From the NCBI GenBank assembly GCA_028871815.1, contig JAGWMJ010000001.1, positions 124,001 through 188,000 on the forward strand: DNA of 64,000 bases, given 5' to 3'. Below the pieces are notes generated by a model. It had not been told where the DNA came from. It worked only from the letters and a program-made list of their open reading frames with translations, and made no database searches. This stretch comes from Armatimonadota bacterium. Its GTDB lineage: Bacteria; Armatimonadota; Chthonomonadetes; Chthonomonadales; Chthonomonadaceae. The position numbers and the translations under genes were made by a program. Below, piece by piece: positions 3,214 through 55,610 of the stretch (positions are counted from its first letter, which is position 1; each line of letters opens with the position of its first letter).

Positions 3214-3699
3214 ATGCACGAACTTTCACATCTTGATGATCGTGGCAGCGCTCGCGTCGTGGATGTTGGACCCAAGGCGGTTACCGAGCGTCGCGCCATC
3301 GCCCGCGGACGCGTGCGCCTGCGGGCCGAAACGATAGCGTGCCTGCGCAGCAACACGCTGCCGAAAGGCGACGCGTTCGCTGTGGCCCGCGTCGCGGGAA
3401 TCCAGGGCGCGAAGCGATGCTCCGACCTGATACCGTTGTGCCATCCGCTGCCGATCAGTTCGATCCGCGTAGATATTGCGCTCGACGACATCGGCGCGCA
3501 GATTGAGGCGGAGGTGGCGGCAACCGCCAAGACCGGAGTGGAGATGGAAGCGCTTACCGCCGTGTCGCTGGCTGCGCTTGCACTGTACGACATGGTGAAG
3601 GCAATCGATCGGAGCGCCGAGATCACCGAGATTGCGCTGTACGAAAAGTCTGGCGGCGTCTCCGGCATCTTCATTCGCGGCGCGGACGCGGACGAGTAA
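3214..3699 (+). CDS. moaC: Cyclic pyranopterin monophosphate synthase MoaC
   Basis: 161 residues, the usual MoaC length. It acts in molybdenum cofactor biosynthesis, converting 3',8-cyclo-7,8-dihydro-GTP (the MoaA product) to cyclic pyranopterin monophosphate in the cytosol. Family motifs are intact: KGDAFAVARVAGIQGAKR, SDLIPLCHPLPI, TGVEMEALTAV and a C-terminal EKSGGVSG. The start is the ATG at 3214; the frame is open upstream to 2899, but that part reads as non-coding. No other Moco genes are in the window, so the gene is isolated here. It lies 46 bases upstream of a peroxiredoxin gene and is probably co-transcribed with it. Confidence 0.96.
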   Translation: MHELSHLDDRGSARVVDVGPKAVTERRAIARGRVRLRAETIACLRSNTLPKGDAFAVARVAGIQGAKRCSDLIPLCHPLPISSIRVDIALDDIGAQIEAEVAATAKTGVEMEALTAVSLAALALYDMVKAIDRSAEITEIALYEKSGGVSGIFIRGADADE

Positions 3700-7428: not shown

Positions 7429-9021
7429 TCAAGAGGCTGCGCGCTCCGGATTGGAGATAACGTGCGGCTGCACCTTCACGCCCTCATCCAGTTCCCATGC
7501 GCCGGTGGTCACAACCTGTTCACCGGCGCTTACTCCGCTCCTCACCTCCACGCCATTGCCTTGATCGGGCCCAAGCTGTACATCCCGGTGGTGCGCCGTA
7601 TTGTCTGCGCCGACAACAAATACGGCGGGCTGTCCGCCCGAATTGACGATCGCATTACGCGGCACCAGCACTCCGTGCGGGTTGATCTTCACCACGATCC
7701 GAGCCGTTGCAAACTGGCCGGATCGCAGCACGCCGGAGCGGTTGTCCACGCGGATCCTTACGCTCAGCAGCCCGGTCTGGGCATCCACCTGTCCCACAGT
7801 AGTTACAAGCCCTGCGACGGCGCTTTTGATTCCGTCTATCGAAACGCTTGCCTTTTGGCCGGGCGCCACAACCGACGCTTCGTCGGCCGGCAGGCTCGCC
7901 TGCAGATCGAGTGCCGTATCGGCGCCAATCTGGAGGATCGGTGTGCTGCTGTCGGCCATATCGCCGGGATTGAGGTATCGCTTTACCACAATGCCGCTGA
8001 GCGGCGCGCACACCTGGCAATATGAGTCCGCCACAGTCGCGGCCCTCATATCTGCTTGCTTCTGCGCTGCAGCGGAGGTCATCGCAATGACGTCCTGCTG
8101 CTTTACACGCACCTGCAGAGCGGCTTGATGCGCCTGAACCAGGGCTGCAGCCGCCTTTGCCACCTGCGCGCTACCATCTGCCTGTGCGGCCGCCAGCGCG
8201 GCTTCGGCCTGCTTGACCCGCAGCTTTGCCGCCTGGAGGTCTTCGGGCCGTGCACCGGCGCGGAGCAGTGCAAGCGCCTGTCGCGACGCGGCAAGGTTGG
8301 CGCCGGCGATGGTTTCGGCCGTCTTCGCATCATCCAGCTGCCGTTGAGAGTCGATTCCGCTGGTCAGCAGTGAGTGCACGCGCACTACTTCCGACGCAGT
8401 ACGGTCGCGCGTCGCCTGGTTCTGGAGCACCACCTGCTCTGCCTGCGCTATCTCCTGTGGTCGCGCGCCGGCCTCCGTCTTGTGAAGGTCGGTCTGGGCG
8501 GTATCCAGTGTCAGCCTTGCCTGGGCCACCGAATTGGCTCGATCTTTACGCGCAGCATCCAGCGCGAGCCCGGCCAGCCTTACCGACGATGCCTGGTCGG
8601 CCGCACCGGCCTTTGCGGCGAGCGCTGCTTCCTGCGCCTGGATGCTGGCGGTTTGTGCGGCCGCGGCCGCACTGGCGGTTTGGGCGTCCAGCGTAGCGTG
8701 ATCCATCACCGCAACAATCTCGCCGGCAGTTACATGCTCACCCTCTCGCACGTTCACGCTTTGGATGCGTCCGGAGAGCACGGGCGCCACACGCGCCGCA
8801 CCGCCCTGTACGGGTCCAAGCAGACCCTGGGCCGCCACCGTATCCTGCACGGGCCGGGCCACGGCCATTACGGTGTCTACGGAAACTGGGGGTGTCGAGG
8901 CTGGCGGATCTACCGCGGGATGACCGACACAGCCTGCGCCGGCAATGCCGAGACCGGCCGCAATAAGCGCCAGGGCCGCGCCGCGGTGCGAACGAGTCGA
9001 ATGGTTACTTCCTGACTTCAG
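7429..9021 (-). CDS. RND efflux periplasmic adapter (HlyD/MFP family), probable lipoprotein, start codon unclear
   Basis: The first ATG (8868) gives 479 residues with a split lipoyl/barrel-sandwich domain (RIQSVNVREGEHVTAGEIVAV), a long Ala-rich coiled-coil hairpin (about 60-260), a beta-barrel and a membrane-proximal domain. That form would lack any export signal. Reading upstream in frame from 8868 to 9021 gives a Lys/Arg-containing start, then RGAALALIAAGLGIAGAG followed by Cys and a Pro/Ser/Thr linker. This is a lipoprotein-type signal, although the lipobox is weak at position -3. No ATG, GTG or TTG exists in that stretch. The only candidate is CTG at 9021, which overlaps the htrA stop as CTGA. 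A sequencing error or a rare start is possible. It feeds the RND pump 34 bases downstream. Confidence 0.85.
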   Translation of the reverse strand: MKSGSNHSTRSHRGAALALIAAGLGIAGAGCVGHPAVDPPASTPPVSVDTVMAVARPVQDTVAAQGLLGPVQGGAARVAPVLSGRIQSVNVREGEHVTAGEIVAVMDHATLDAQTASAAAAAQTASIQAQEAALAAKAGAADQASSVRLAGLALDAARKDRANSVAQARLTLDTAQTDLHKTEAGARPQEIAQAEQVVLQNQATRDRTASEVVRVHSLLTSGIDSQRQLDDAKTAETIAGANLAASRQALALLRAGARPEDLQAAKLRVKQAEAALAAAQADGSAQVAKAAAALVQAHQAALQVRVKQQDVIAMTSAAAQKQADMRAATVADSYCQVCAPLSGIVVKRYLNPGDMADSSTPILQIGADTALDLQASLPADEASVVAPGQKASVSIDGIKSAVAGLVTTVGQVDAQTGLLSVRIRVDNRSGVLRSGQFATARIVVKINPHGVLVPRNAIVNSGGQPAVFVVGADNTAHHRDVQLGPDQGNGVEVRSGVSAGEQVVTTGAWELDEGVKVQPHVISNPERAAS

Positions 9022-15543: not shown

Positions 15544-16950
15544 CTAAGGCGCCGCCTGCGCTCCGGCAGACTCGGCTTGGCCCTCGGCGTCGATAGCAGA
15601 CATCGGCTTGATGCCCAGGCTCAGAATGAATCCCGTTCCCATCAGCGCAGCCGATGCGTAAAACGGGATCCAGGTATGAACGGCAACGAGCCAGTTATTG
15701 AGCGGTGGCGCGGTCATGCGGGCCAGGCTGCCGAGGCCGCGCTGCGTTCCGGATATCTGACCACGCCGCTTCGGTCCGGCCGCATGCGTGATCATCGCGC
15801 TCATGGAGGGCTCGAGTACGCCCATTCCGACCGCGATTGCACAAGAAGCTATATAGAGCACCGCAAGGTTTCCGGTGTAACCCAATACGATCAGCGTAAT
15901 CGTAAGTACCAGAACGCCGAACGAGGCCAGAATGTGCTCTCCAACGCGCTGGGCGAGGCCGCGCATCACGAACCCCTGAGTAATGAGGAGGGCGACGCCC
16001 ACGATAGCGAATATCCGGCTGGTGACGGCGGTCTCGGCTCGCTCGATCAAGTCGTTCCTCAGTTTCGGCGCGAGAGCCGCGAAATGTGAGCGCGTAAAGA
16101 GGGCCCAGTCGACATGTGCCGGGGCCAAAGCACGGATATCTGCCGGAATGCGCGCGGTCGGCATGGACGCAAAGCCCCGCCACAACTGCTGCGCGTTGAC
16201 GACCATTTGTGGATGTAAGCGGAGGATTACCAGCCAGCTGAAGCTGGACTCCACGGCAGTAAAAGCAAATGTGATGAATACATTTACCGTCAGCAGCCGC
16301 GAGACGGTGGGATCGCGAAAGGCACGAGCGATTGCCGGAAACGCATCCAGCGCGCTGCGCTTCTCCTGGGTGACGGATCGGTCGGTATGGCTCTCCGGTA
16401 AGAGTCGCCACGCCAGAAACCAGTTGCCCACGGCAAGGCCGGCCGCAACGAGAGCCGGTGTTGCCAGCGCGGGAAGTCCGAATAGGGAGTACCGTCCGAG
16501 CACGCCGCCGAGGAGCGGACCGAAAGCGAATCCCAGTCCAAAGCTGGCTCCGAGCATGGCCATTCCGCTCGAGCGCTTCTCAGGTGGAGTAACGTCGGCG
16601 ACGTAGGCCTGAGATGTGGGAAGGCTGGCTGCGGTAAGGATGCCGGAGGCGGCGCGCGCCAGAAACAGCACGGCCAGATTTGGCGCAGCGCCGAAGAAGA
16701 AGTACGAAACCGCGGAGCCGCCCAGGCCCACCAGGATCACAGGTCGGCGGCCCGTGAAATCGGACCGGCGGCCCCAGATCGGCGCGAAAACGAACTGCAT
16801 CAGGGAGAAGGTGGCCATCAGCGCCCCACCCACCCATGGCGCGCCGCCGTAGTGCGTGATGTACACCGGCAGCAGCGGCATGATGAATCCGAACCCCAAC
16901 ATATCCAGGAACAGCGTGAGGCACAGGATAAGGAGGGGCGTTCGTTTCAT
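15544..16950 (-). CDS. MFS transporter, TetA-like drug/proton antiporter family
   Basis: 468 residues from the ATG at 16950 (frame open to 16998). It has twelve membrane segments. TM1 is LLILCLTLFLDMLGFGFIMP, and motif A after TM2 reads GRRSDFTGRRPVI. Motif C lies in the TM5 region (GMAMLGASFGLGFAFGPLLGG), the antiporter signature of 12-14 TM drug/H+ exporters. Unusual is an insertion of about 80 residues between TM7 (LTVNVFITFAFTAVESSF) and TM8 (IFAIVGVALLITQGFV), rich in Ala, Arg and Pro, in what is normally a short loop. It is first in the run with cinA and recA. The substrate is not predictable. Confidence 0.9.
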   Translation of the reverse strand: MKRTPLLILCLTLFLDMLGFGFIMPLLPVYITHYGGAPWVGGALMATFSLMQFVFAPIWGRRSDFTGRRPVILVGLGGSAVSYFFFGAAPNLAVLFLARAASGILTAASLPTSQAYVADVTPPEKRSSGMAMLGASFGLGFAFGPLLGGVLGRYSLFGLPALATPALVAAGLAVGNWFLAWRLLPESHTDRSVTQEKRSALDAFPAIARAFRDPTVSRLLTVNVFITFAFTAVESSFSWLVILRLHPQMVVNAQQLWRGFASMPTARIPADIRALAPAHVDWALFTRSHFAALAPKLRNDLIERAETAVTSRIFAIVGVALLITQGFVMRGLAQRVGEHILASFGVLVLTITLIVLGYTGNLAVLYIASCAIAVGMGVLEPSMSAMITHAAGPKRRGQISGTQRGLGSLARMTAPPLNNWLVAVHTWIPFYASAALMGTGFILSLGIKPMSAIDAEGQAESAGAQAAP

Positions 16951-17035
16951 GAGTGAGGGCCGGTCTGTCAGTATGGCACGGGCGGGTTCCTGCGTCAACG
17001 CGCTCCGTGAGGGCGAGGCGACCCAGCCGGGAAGG

Positions 17036-17041
17036 TATCAT
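17036..17041 (+). promoter_or_regulatory. Candidate -10 element (TATCAT) for metF
   Basis: GGTATCAT sits with its last base 13 bases before the metF ATG, which would leave an untranslated leader of about 6 bases. There is no convincing -35 hexamer 17 bases upstream. Assigned by eye from the recurring GGTANNNT pattern in this window. Confidence 0.35.
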
Positions 17042-17053
17042 ACGGCGCAAGCC

Positions 17054-17980
17054 ATGCATATTCACGATATATTTGCAGCTCAAACCACGACCTTCAGCTT
17101 CGAGTTCAGCCCTCCCAAAACCGACGATGCGGCGGGAGCCCTGTTCGCAGCAATCCGGCGTCTGGAGCGGCTGCAGCCCAGCTTCGTTTCGGTGACGTAC
17201 GGCGCCGGCGGCTCAACGCGTGGCAGGACTCAGGATCTGGTGGTGCGCATCAAGCGCGAAACATCGTGCGATGCCGTGCCACACCTTACCTGCGTCTGCC
17301 ACAGTGAGGCGGATATTCGCGCGATGCTGCAGCGATATGCCGAAAACGGCATATCGAATCTCCATGCGCTGGGCGGCGATGTACCGTTGGACCGTGCCGG
17401 TTACGACCGGGGGCAGGATGCCTTTCGTTATGCCACCGATCTGGTGGCGTATATACGGCGCTTCAACGAGAGCGGCGTACATCCGGACCGTCGCGGCTTT
17501 GGTATCGGAGTCGCCGGCTTTCCAGAGGGGCACCCAGCAACACCGAACCGTCTGCTGGAGATGGACTACCTGAAGGCGAAGGTGGATGCCGGCGCCGATT
17601 ACATCGTGACCCAGCTGTTCTTCGACAATCGCGATTTCTTTGACTTCCGGGAGCGGTGCCAACTTGCCGGGATCAACGTACCGATCATCGCCGGTCTGAT
17701 GCCGGTCACCTCGATGCAGGGGCTGAAGCGGATGGCCGAGCTCGCGCTGGGGTGTCGGTTTCCGGCACGGTTGATCAGATTGCTCAACCGGTGCGCCGAT
17801 GATGACGGCATTCGCCGCGCCGGGGTTCACTGGGCAACCGAGCAGTGCCGCGATCTGCTGGATGGCGGAGTACGCGGTATCCACTTCTACACCCTGAACC
17901 GCTCGCACGCAACCACGGAAATCTACGCCGGCCTCGGCGTGCAGAACTCGCGCCAGTTGCTGGAGCCGCGTGCAGGATGA
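17054..17980 (+). CDS. metF: Methylenetetrahydrofolate reductase MetF
   Basis: 308 residues. It is the FAD-dependent reductase that makes 5-methyl-THF from 5,10-methylene-THF for methionine synthesis. TIM-barrel family motifs are present: TFSFEFSPPKTDDAA, SVTYGAGGSTRGRTQDLV, HLTCV near residue 80, NGISNLHALGGDVP, DYIVTQLFFDN, and VPIIAGLMPVTS. The start at 17054 is chosen because the frame upstream (open to 16856) overlaps the divergent MFS gene. No Shine-Dalgarno is seen, but a -10-like TATCAT lies just before the ATG. No SAM or T-box riboswitch was recognised upstream. Confidence 0.95.
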   Translation: MHIHDIFAAQTTTFSFEFSPPKTDDAAGALFAAIRRLERLQPSFVSVTYGAGGSTRGRTQDLVVRIKRETSCDAVPHLTCVCHSEADIRAMLQRYAENGISNLHALGGDVPLDRAGYDRGQDAFRYATDLVAYIRRFNESGVHPDRRGFGIGVAGFPEGHPATPNRLLEMDYLKAKVDAGADYIVTQLFFDNRDFFDFRERCQLAGINVPIIAGLMPVTSMQGLKRMAELALGCRFPARLIRLLNRCADDDGIRRAGVHWATEQCRDLLDGGVRGIHFYTLNRSHATTEIYAGLGVQNSRQLLEPRAG

Positions 17981-46062: not shown

Positions 46063-46997
46063 GTGCGCCAGACCTAGGCTCCCGCTTCCGCATATGTCTC
46101 ATACGCCCCATTGGTCGCATTTCAGCATGTGTCCCTCGCTGCCATCGCGATCGGCGCTTGGGTACGCGCCTACCAGATAGGACATATAGGTTCGCGCACA
46201 CGTGGCTAGTAAGCGGAGTAGCGGGCGCGCGCCGCGGATGAATCTCAGCGGGATGGTTCCGGCTGTGCGCCAGGCGCAGATTCCGGTGCCGCATAGGTCT
46301 CATATGTCCCATTGGTCGCATTTCAGCAAGCGTCCCGCGGTAGGGTGCGCGCTCACCACATGGGACCAATGCGACAACTAGGACATATAGGCTCGCGCAC
46401 ACGTGGCCGGCAAGCGGAGTAGCGGGCGCGCGCCGCGGATGAATCTGAGCGAGATGGTTCCGGCTGTGCGCCAGGCGCAGATTCCGGCTTCCGCATATGC
46501 CTTGTTTATCGCATTTCAGCAGGCGTCCCGCGGTGGGGTGCGCGCTCACCACATGGGACCAATGTGACAACTAGGACATATAGGTTCGCGCACACGTGGC
46601 TAGTAAGCGGAGCAGCGGCATCCGGCTGTGCGCCAGGCCTAGGCTCCCGCTTCCGCATATGTCTCATACGTCCCATTGGTCGCATTTCAGCAAGCGTCCC
46701 GCGGTGGCGTGCGCGCTCACCAAATGGGACCAATGCGACAACTAGGACATATAGGTTCGCGCACACGTGGCTAGTAAGCGGAGTAGCGGCCTCCGGCTGT
46801 GCGCCAGGCGCAGATTCCGGCTTTCGCATATGCCTTGTTTATCGCATTCAGCAGGCGTCCCGCGTTGGGGTGCGCGCTCACCACATGGGACCAATGTGAC
46901 AACTAGGACATATAGGTTCGCGCACACGTGGCGGGCAAGCGGAGTAGCGGGGGCGCGCCGCGCATCGTGGAAGAATCTCAGTGGAATGGTTCCGGCT
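46063..46997. repeat. Five-unit mosaic tandem repeat array (162-202 bp units)
   Basis: Five units starting at each GTGCGCCAG: 46063-46264, 46265-46465, 46466-46627, 46628-46798 and 46799-46997. Each holds a left arm near CATATGTCTCATACG / CCCATTGGTCGCATTT and most a right arm near ACATGGGACCAATG then CGACAACTAGGACATATAGG, which are inverted relative to each other with two mismatches over the core. The common tail is TTCGCGCACACGTGGC then AAGCGGAGTAGCGG. Units 1, 2 and 5 carry an extra ~40 bp (GCGCGCCGCG and GATGGTTCCGGCT parts), and units 3 and 5 have an alternative left arm (GCCTTGTTTATCGCATT). Unit 1 has lost most of its right arm. Open frames run through it on both strands but look like by-products of the repetition. 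Confidence 0.9.
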
Positions 46998-53354: not shown

Positions 53355-53563
53355 GGTTCGTGTTGGTTGCGGGCTAGTCGCGTCGCCTGGAGGTAGGACG
53401 CGCGGCAAACCCGGCCGCGCCGCGAGCGCGATTCCGCATTTCGAGCGCGCCGGATAGTATGTATTGTGAACGTTTGAATGCTGCAGTGTGATTGAAGCAC
53501 CCACACTGAAGCCCCGGGGCGCGGAGCGTGAGGCGGCAGTAGCGAACCGGAAGGAGGCGTGGA

Positions 53564-53701
53564 TTGCCTGGCAAACTGATTGATCCGGCGCCGAAGTGGG
53601 CGATCGAAGCGGCCGTACCGGAGCGGCTTGAATACCACCTCACAACCATAACGCCGATGTTCGGCGGCGGCGCGATCGCACCCGGTCCTCGGACCGGGTG
53701 A
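53564..53701 (+). pseudogene. 5' fragment of a cmr1-like gene (type III-B CRISPR RAMP)
   Basis: TTG start at 53564 with AGGAGG 6 bases upstream, then 37 codons ending LEYHLTTITPMFGGGA. This is the N-terminal strand and Gly-rich loop of Cmr1 proteins (pattern like TxTPxFxGGA followed by a substrate loop). The reading frame then enters a 36-base CRISPR-like repeat and ends at TGA 53699-53701 (IAPGPRTG), so the rest of the ~300-450 residue gene is missing. The assignment rests on a short match and could be another RAMP protein. The adjacent CRISPR-like repeat supports it. Confidence 0.6.
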
Positions 53702-53711
53702 GGATTGAAAC
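53676..53711 (+). CRISPR. Solitary CRISPR-like repeat R1
   Basis: 36 bases beginning TCGCACCCGG, with the perfect palindrome ACCCGGTCC-TC-GGACCGGGT and ending GAGGATTGAAAC. The ATTGAAAC end is the classical crRNA 5' handle. It sits at the point where the cmr1-like fragment breaks off. 27 bases further, TCGCACCCG recurs (53739) as a possible decayed repeat. Confidence 0.55.
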
Positions 53712-54035
53712 TCAACAGCGGGACGGTGCGTGTACTCCTCGCACCCGACAGCGCAGCCGGGGCTAGACTGGCGGCACCAGGCTAATCTCCTTGTTCATAT
53801 GGACTCCCCGTGGACCGGAAGCGTTATCAAGCAGCGAGAGGGCAGGATCTGTCGCACCGGCCGGAAGAACCGGTGCCGCATGATCAACCTGCGGATGGCG
53901 GGAACGGTTGACGAGCACAAAGCGGCACTGGCGATGAAGAAAATCGCGGGCGAAGCGAGTGTCCTGACCGGCAGCGAAGCGGCTGCGTCCACGCATGGGC
54001 TATCGTATCAGGAACTGATGGCGATGCCGGATTGA
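53709..54035 (+). pseudogene. C-terminal fragment of a SNF2-type helicase
   Basis: The open frame 53709-54035 (first possible start GTG 53730) matches the end of superfamily 2 SNF2 helicases: motif V-like GLDWRHQANLLVHMDSPW, motif VI QREGRICRTGRK, then INLRMAGTVDEHKAALAMKK, the usual post-motif VI segment. Motifs I-IV are absent, as the frame begins just after repeat R1. It looks like a 5'-truncated helicase gene. It ends 10 bases before the topoisomerase ATG, so the two were probably one operon in the intact element. Confidence 0.65.
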
Positions 54036-54045
54036 CGAGGAAAGC

Positions 54046-55533
54046 ATGAAACGTACCATAAGAATTGCGGCGTCCGATCTTACTTATCTGGAATACTTGA
54101 CGTCATTGAGCCACCTTCTGCGACCGTCGGACCGCGCGGGCATGGGTCCCGAAGGCATTCGCGAGACGTTGCGCCTCGTGCTGAAGGGCGCCTCTCAGTT
54201 TGGTGAGGAACTGCCGGGCGTATGCGAGACTCTGATAGCCATGTACGGTGTGGCGGGCGAGCCGCTCCCCAAGGCGTCCAGCGTGGGCCGCGACGGCCGC
54301 GACGTTACCGGCGAGGCACGCGACGACAGTGGTCGATGGACGCTCGGTTCCCGTATCGTAGCGCCAAAGGCGAAACAGCCAGGATCCAGGGACCCGCGAC
54401 CAGTAAACAGAGGCGGCAGGCCGTTAGCACCATTCGCCGACTGGGCACGTATTGTGGAGAGCGGGATTAACATACCAAGGGAATCCTACGACATTCAGCC
54501 CGGCTCCGGCCACGCAGCTATCACCTATTACGATTACAACGACAAGCGCAAGATCGTGTATCCGCCGGAGTGGGTGGCGCAGCGAAAGGATCAAAAGTTG
54601 CTTCAATTGTGCGAGGTGAGCCAGCATTATGCCGCGATGACAGCATTTGCCAACAGCTTTACACCGGACGGGACGAGTGAGGAGAACGTGGCGAAGGCCG
54701 CGATGTGGCTCCTCGATAAAACAAATATGCGGATTGGTTCCGAGGCTCTTGTGGAGCGAAATGGCTCATACGGAGTCACCACACTGACGGCAGACCATAT
54801 TACGTTCGAGGGTACATCCGCCCGCATCGCGCTTTATGGTAAGTCCCGGGTGCAGTGGTATCTCAAGATTTCGAACCGCAAAATGGTGGCATTCCTGCGA
54901 GCGTGCAAAGCGCGCGACTGTGACACGCTGTTTTGCTATGAGCGAAATGGGCGACAGCACGGAATCACCGCGGCACAAGTGAATGAGCGGCTCCGCCGTT
55001 ACGGGATGACCGCCCGGGAACTGCGAACGTTTCATGCGACGCGCATGGCCGTGGACCAACTGTTGGAGATGCCGGAGCCAGCTGATCAACGTGCGGCAAA
55101 GCGAAACATCGCCGAGGCGATTAAAACGGTTGCGGCGCAATTGCACAACACGCCAGCGGTCTGCAAAGCCAGTTTCATCAACCCGACCGTCATGACGGCG
55201 TATGAGGCGGGTGCGCTGAGTGGCGAACACGCTTTGACGGTCGCGGAGGCCGGTGCGGTTGAAACCGATGCGGGTGCGGCTGAAACCGAGGCACATGAAG
55301 CCGCAAGCATCGCGAGGTTCCAGCGAATCCTATTGAAGTTCGCGAAGGCGGATGTGGCTGAAACAGACGCGGATGCGGCTGAAGCCGAGGCGGATGCGGC
55401 TGAAACCGAGGCGGATGTGGCTGAAGCCGAGGCGCGTGAAGCCGCAAGCATCGCGAGGTTCCAGCTTATCGTGGGGTTGGTTGGCCGTGCGCGCAACGCG
55501 TCGCACCCGGCCCTCGGACCGGATGAGGATTGA
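54046..55533 (+). CDS. Type IB topoisomerase homologue with catalytic Tyr replaced by Phe
   Basis: 495 residues with GAGGA upstream of the ATG. The core at ~130-390 is bacterial TopIB: IVYPPEWVAQRKDQ, WLLDKTNMRIGSE (Arg229), LYGKSRVQWYLKI (Lys266), ARELRTFHATR (Arg327) and LHNTPAVCKASFINPTV. In active enzymes the Tyr nucleophile lies in an S-Y-I/V-x-P context (compare NYLDP in eukaryotic Top1); here it is Phe377 (TTC at 55174-55176). If real, it cannot form the covalent 3'-phosphotyrosyl link. The ~130-residue N-terminal domain is unknown. The tail holds Ala/Glu/Asp heptads, and the stop TGA falls inside CRISPR-like repeat R2. Confidence 0.8.
   Translation: MKRTIRIAASDLTYLEYLTSLSHLLRPSDRAGMGPEGIRETLRLVLKGASQFGEELPGVCETLIAMYGVAGEPLPKASSVGRDGRDVTGEARDDSGRWTLGSRIVAPKAKQPGSRDPRPVNRGGRPLAPFADWARIVESGINIPRESYDIQPGSGHAAITYYDYNDKRKIVYPPEWVAQRKDQKLLQLCEVSQHYAAMTAFANSFTPDGTSEENVAKAAMWLLDKTNMRIGSEALVERNGSYGVTTLTADHITFEGTSARIALYGKSRVQWYLKISNRKMVAFLRACKARDCDTLFCYERNGRQHGITAAQVNERLRRYGMTARELRTFHATRMAVDQLLEMPEPADQRAAKRNIAEAIKTVAAQLHNTPAVCKASFINPTVMTAYEAGALSGEHALTVAEAGAVETDAGAAETEAHEAASIARFQRILLKFAKADVAETDADAAEAEADAAETEADVAEAEAREAASIARFQLIVGLVGRARNASHPALGPDED
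55348..55431 (+). repeat. Four tandem 21-bp repeats in the topoisomerase homologue tail
   Basis: Units at 55348, 55369, 55390 and 55411, each near GCGGATGYGGCTGAA then ACCGAG or similar, encoding ADVAETD / ADAAEAE / ADAAETE / ADVAEAE. They are flanked by two copies of a ~30-bp segment (GAAGCCGCAAGCATC then GCGAGGTTCCAG) at about 55298-55322 and 55439-55463, indicating slippage or duplication. Confidence 0.85.
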
Positions 55534-55610
55534 AACTCTGGAGGAGATACGAGGCCTGTCCGGTCGACGCCGTGCCGCACCCGGTCCTCGAACCGGGTGC
55601 GCATTACAAC
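55501..55610 (+). CRISPR. Minimal CRISPR-like array: R2, one 38-base spacer, decayed R3
   Basis: R2 (55501-55536) differs from R1 at two of 36 positions and keeps GAGGATTGAAAC. A 38-base spacer (55537-55574) follows, then R3 (55575-55610), which keeps the palindromic core CGCACCCGGTCCTCG but is decayed at the 3' end (CGCATTACAAC). Repeat length, spacer length and terminal-repeat decay all fit a remnant CRISPR array. No intact cas gene is in the window; the cmr1-like fragment is 1.8 kb upstream. Confidence 0.55.

Follow-up and report, generated by a model that had tools for sequence, protein, structure and literature searches.

A cmr1 fragment fused to a CRISPR repeat, very probably left by the deletion of a type III-B (Cmr) locus in an Armatimonadota bacterium

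How does a short reading frame that begins like Cmr1 come to end inside a CRISPR repeat? The question arises from a 64,000-nucleotide stretch of an Armatimonadota genome (assembly GCA_028871815.1, contig JAGWMJ010000001.1), hereafter the window. A TTG codon 6 nt past an AGGAGG Shine-Dalgarno sequence opens a frame of 45 codons (53564-53701), whose TGA stop (53699-53701) falls within the first of three CRISPR repeats, R1 (Table 1). An earlier, sequence-only reading of this DNA had described the TTG-started frame with its perfect AGGAGG, a Cmr1-style N-terminus, and the merging of the frame into a CRISPR-like repeat in which it ends, and had read the site as what is left of a Cmr locus that collapsed by recombination with its own array. 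Those observations hold, and our analysis likewise supports a collapsed Cmr locus, with recombination as the presumed event; it adds two further repeats (R2 and R3), a 37-nt spacer, a SNF2 helicase fragment abutting R1, and a topoisomerase IB (TopIB)-like gene. Because a cmr1 stump is fused to a repeat and the other CRISPR genes searched for have been lost, the site is very probably a deletion scar, left where an immune system was lost, specifically a type III-B (Cmr) locus in which cmr1 was joined at about codon 38 to a repeat of a downstream array.

Table 1. Features of the junction region (positions in the window) and solitary repeats in other Armatimonadota (positions in the named loci)
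Feature	Position	Strand	Evidence or context
Shine-Dalgarno AGGAGG of cmr1 stump	53552..53557	+	sequence
cmr1 5' end, codons 1-37 plus one base	53564..53675	+	HMM of relatives' Cmr1 N-termini; alignment
CRISPR repeat R1, intact, first base A not G	53675..53711	+	CRISPR-DR9 39.8 bits; hairpin
SNF2-type helicase C-terminal fragment (motifs V-VI), pseudogene	53711..54035	+	profile matches, alignment
Topoisomerase IB-like gene	54046..55533	+	Pfam Topoisom_I 1.6e-21; alignment; tandem repeats
CRISPR repeat R2, stem mutated, hairpin weakened	55500..55536	+	CRISPR-DR9 31.2 bits; fold z -0.4
Single remaining spacer, 37 nt	55537..55573	+	genome and phage match searches
CRISPR repeat R3, degenerate 3' end GCATTACAAC	55574..55610	+	sequence, repeat search
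Solitary repeat	L048:6270-6306	+	other Armatimonadota (G050/G058 set)
Solitary repeat	L049 about 7609-7645	-	other Armatimonadota (G050/G058 set)
Solitary repeat	L050 about 3405-3441	-	other Armatimonadota (G050/G058 set)

The stump is translated as LPGKLIDPAPKWAIEAAVPERLEYHLTTITPMFGGGA, and full Cmr1 proteins in the same phylum start with, for example, MSVRLVKDPAPAWSPPGADPDTSANYEIKVVTPLFGGGA and MSRIPSVRPPEWAPPKVPTREYKISVVTPMFGGGA. All residues invariant in an alignment of Cmr1 from nine relatives are present in it (P10, W12, T30, P31, F33, and G34-36), and it carries the strand-loop TPxFxGG(A/Y) preceded by P-x-W that characterizes the Cmr1 N-terminus. The profile search foreseen in the sequence-only reading succeeded with one kind of model and not with the other: a lineage-specific HMM built from ten Cmr1 N-termini of relatives, with the window sequence left out, recovers the frame with an E value of 2.4e-8 over the six-frame translation of the whole window (1709 peptides in all; 0.74 for the runner-up), while curated Pfam and NCBIfam models leave the 45-residue stump undetected. 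A weak PADLOC match of the 45-residue frame to a methyltransferase (0.066) was put down to chance. When 291 genomes of the phylum were searched with a profile that included the window row, only the window's frame is so short among the matches listed (52 codons from stop to stop); nearly all others listed are frames of 300-490 codons, the exceptions, at 125-214 codons, being a few frames that are short, split, or at a contig end. The starts in relatives that come closest to that of the stump lie on Cmr1 genes, and the same start was not seen on an intact unrelated gene. The earlier Cmr1 call was thus right. With its stop at codon 45 the frame is far from the roughly 400 aa of a complete RAMP protein; it encodes a piece of Cmr1 and no Cmr1 protein, being now without cas function and yielding, if translated, a 45-residue peptide.

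The repeat into which the stump runs is also real, although its unit, put at 36 bases in the sequence-only reading, is 37 nt and begins (G)TCGCACCC. R1 and R2 are full-length matches to the Rfam family CRISPR-DR9 (RF01322), at 39.8 bits (E 6.5e-7) and 31.2 bits (E 2.4e-4), respectively, against a gathering score of 45. The hairpin of R1 is strong (-21 kcal/mol, z -4.6) and R3 also folds strongly, while the fold of R2 is no better than those of shuffles. Three copies of the repeat, at 53676, 55501, and 55575, compare with 0.00 expected in shuffles, and a whole-genome search allowing up to 3 mismatches found these three only. R2 and R3, 1.8 kb downstream of R1, flank a unique 37-nt spacer with a period of 74, and so form a CRISPR array in the sense of at least two near-identical repeats with a unique spacer of regular length between them. 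The interval between R1 and R2 is irregular, and we dropped the notion of a giant spacer for this stretch of 1.8 kb, which holds an operon-like gene pair. Leader-distal terminal repeats are often degenerate (PMC8047081), and the most degenerate copy, R3, sits at the 3' end of the remnant, which favors the deletion scar.

The spacer has no match at 3 mismatches elsewhere in its own genome and no convincing phage match, so self-targeting as the trigger of the loss is unsupported. An exact match to the repeat core was not found in viral contigs, and a comparison of the whole region with plasmids at the DNA level returned short matches only, which span no more than 4% of the query. Single CRISPR repeats of similar type stand alone in other Armatimonadota (G050 and G058), where their surroundings yielded no second copy; one of these repeats lies upstream of a ferredoxin gene.

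In the genome as a whole (3.68 Mb in 22 contigs, 98.3% complete), no match was found for RAMPs (PF03787), Cmr1 (TIGR01894), Cmr2 (TIGR02577), Cas1 (PF01867), or Cas7 (PF05107). The search went family by family and covered these five; Cas1 is present in 15 of the 21 genomes included in the Cas1 search. The genome thus has no match to the cmr2/cas10 and other RAMP genes of a functional type III-B system, and the repeats are orphans, without the tested cas genes for processing or use. CRISPR arrays are repeats that break assemblies, and a misjoin at a collapsed array, or an error of binning, could have left the true Cmr locus out of the assembly. However, the contig is 717 kb long, R1, R2, and R3 differ from one another, the intervening stretch is unique, and a misjoin must also have lost every cas family searched; moreover, R2 and R3 are mutated, as expected of an old relic. 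We therefore consider such an artefact very unlikely.

The arrangement of the lost locus can be judged from relatives. In a genome of the same family (G013, locus L041), cas5c, cas7c, and cas4 come first, and cmr1, cmr2, cmr3, cmr4, cmr5, cmr6, and a ring-nuclease gene come next on the same strand; past these lie further frames and then an array (16704-17318). In another member of the order (G018, locus L042), cas4, cmr1-cmr6, a ring-nuclease gene, cas1c, and an array occur in sequence on one strand. Both of these Chthonomonadales loci contain a complete III-B cmr1-6 cassette after cas4 and one downstream array, with type I-C genes beside the cassette (cas5c and cas7c in L041, cas1c in L042). 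The collinear order and shared orientation of cmr1-cmr6 and array support a collapsed Cmr locus and its origin by deletion. As to whether it was a stand-alone III-B locus or a III-B cassette within a type I-C locus, we infer by analogy with these relatives that it was probably the latter.

A third relative, of the same family and with a single-contig genome (G002, locus L045), has cmr1 and cmr2 each split into separate frames and a truncated cmr3; cmr4-6 and Cas1 were not found there, nor was an array within the stretch read. This half-decayed locus is an intermediate of the same process, which likewise favors a deletion scar in the window. Counting against it, the array of G011, also of this family, lies upstream of cmr1, so the ancestral order is not uniform. 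No sister with the pre-deletion state was found among the neighbourhoods read either, and the fumarase of this ABC-transporter/fumarase site has only one other strong match in the family.

Starting from an order like that of G013 and G018, a deletion reaching from inside cmr1 to an array repeat would give exactly the junction of cmr1 start and repeat found here. It would have joined codon 38 or thereabouts to the 5' end of a same-orientation repeat in the downstream array, keeping the leader-distal array end but taking away what follows in cmr1, together with cmr2-cmr6, cas1/cas2, the leader, and the repeats nearest to it. The conservation of Cmr1 reaches Ala37 (53672-53674), and the repeat begins at 53675/53676. 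In the window, Ile38-Ala39 is encoded by ATC GCA; other Cmr1 proteins continue GGG-x-x-(A/P)-G, e.g., GGGAVAGQVD and GGGAVPGEND, so Ile38-Ala39 can be native cmr1 sequence. If it is, cmr1 and the start of the repeat would overlap by the 5 nt TCGCA. Since the native cmr1 sequence past codon 37 is lost, we infer this overlap, and a deletion via the short TCGCA microhomology is the most likely route on the left.

On its right side, R1 runs with no spacer into KLNSGTVRVLLAPDSAAG, and alignment by eye matches this sequence to SNF2 motif V (compare RLFNEGTVRFLVSTEAAGEGIDLQ in L061). This helicase fragment, starting at the R1 3' end, reads through motif V, a frame change near 53755, and motif VI, so that with the cmr1 piece on the left and the helicase piece on the right a single repeat is sandwiched between two gene fragments. 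In the TopIB-like gene that follows, comparison with a solved enzyme (2f4q) and four relatives places Phe at the position of the catalytic Tyr of topoisomerase IB (CKASFINP), and the protein is probably inactive as a topoisomerase. Its C-terminus is an Ala/Glu tail of tandem 7-codon repeats that reads into R2, and its N-terminal part of about 130 residues has no Pfam match. TopIB relatives occur in 5 of 61 genomes, its own included, and a direct protein scan of the genome contigs with TopIB found no relative. That the helicase-TopIB stretch is a known defence system found no support, as the helicase piece resembles SNF2 motif VI of many helicases to a similar degree (DrmD and HmaA among them) and relatives of TopIB are rare. 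Elsewhere in the window, tandem repeats of about 171-201 bp (46178-46950; 2-3 copies, 85-89% alike) lie downstream of an Mrp/ApbC-like gene.

A second event may have put the SNF2-helicase/topoisomerase IB segment between R1 and R2, through either another deletion, with its end in the helicase gene, or an insertion into the array remnant; R1 and R2-R3 may have been parts of one interrupted array or of two arrays. The left join of R1 is exact and the right one lies within about 2 nt, which is tighter than random deletion predicts and counts against the deletion scar. Cas1 acts at repeat ends in spacer integration, and the fragments meet R1 at just these ends (cmr1 at 53675/53676, the helicase at 53711). 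Cas1-Cas2, or a Cas1-like integrase, could thus have ligated gene fragments to both repeat ends, by aberrant integration or disintegration, before cas1 was lost. Yet no cas1 is left, this is a single case, and microhomology, with TCGCA at the cmr1 join and perhaps TGAAAC at the helicase join, is simpler for both edges, so we give the integrase route little chance. The broader proposition that Cas1-Cas2 ligated the broken gene ends to both repeat termini, and that the adaptation machinery of a CRISPR-Cas locus can in this way bring about the deletion of the locus itself, seems to us slightly more improbable again. Two microhomology deletions would explain both joins of R1 simply, Cas1-Cas2 joins being more exotic.

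The perfect Shine-Dalgarno sequence and the strongly folding R1, together with the solitary repeats of the same kind in other Armatimonadota, could also point to a functional mini-locus, in which the truncated cmr1 frame and the repeat are kept as a leader or regulatory unit, with the repeat processed in the mRNA, for example. However, no searched cas gene is left for repeat processing, R2 has a weaker hairpin, a frameshift breaks the helicase piece, and the TopIB-like protein lacks its catalytic Tyr; nor does the stump have a conserved copy in relatives, where its matches sit in longer cmr1 frames. Such a retained function is hardly credible. The deletion scar is accordingly our preferred reading: a clear fossil, left by an event of a kind already known, and no new system.

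This fossil is unusually legible, as one junction reveals the lost system, the array end that was cut, and the direction. The intact loci of G013 and G018, the half-decayed locus of G002, and the scar in the window make up a three-stage series of Cmr-locus loss in one Armatimonadota order, and a systematic search for repeat-adjacent cas stumps could measure where CRISPR-Cas deletions break.

Among known systems, the site most resembles the III-B (Cmr) loci in a I-C context in G013 and G018, with which it shares the P-W...TP(M/L)FGGG signature at the cmr1 N-terminus, a GC-rich hairpin repeat ending GAGGATTGAAAC, and an array collinear downstream of cmr1. Unlike them, it keeps 37 cmr1 codons and three repeats only, cmr2, other RAMP genes, cas1, and cas7 not being found here. 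With G002 it shares an eroding Cmr locus in a genome without a Cas1 match, but the G002 locus keeps pieces of cmr1, cmr2, and cmr3 and no array in the stretch read, whereas the window keeps repeats and almost no cas sequence. Loss of CRISPR-cas by large deletion has been documented, for example in Staphylococcus epidermidis under plasmid selection (PMC3784566), where the CRISPR-cas region was likewise deleted; ours is a single natural relic, seen as a sequence scar only, for which no selection is known. Orphan or isolated CRISPRs (PMC5294841) similarly consist of repeats without companion cas genes, but here the stump of a cas gene still marks the type of the system that was lost.
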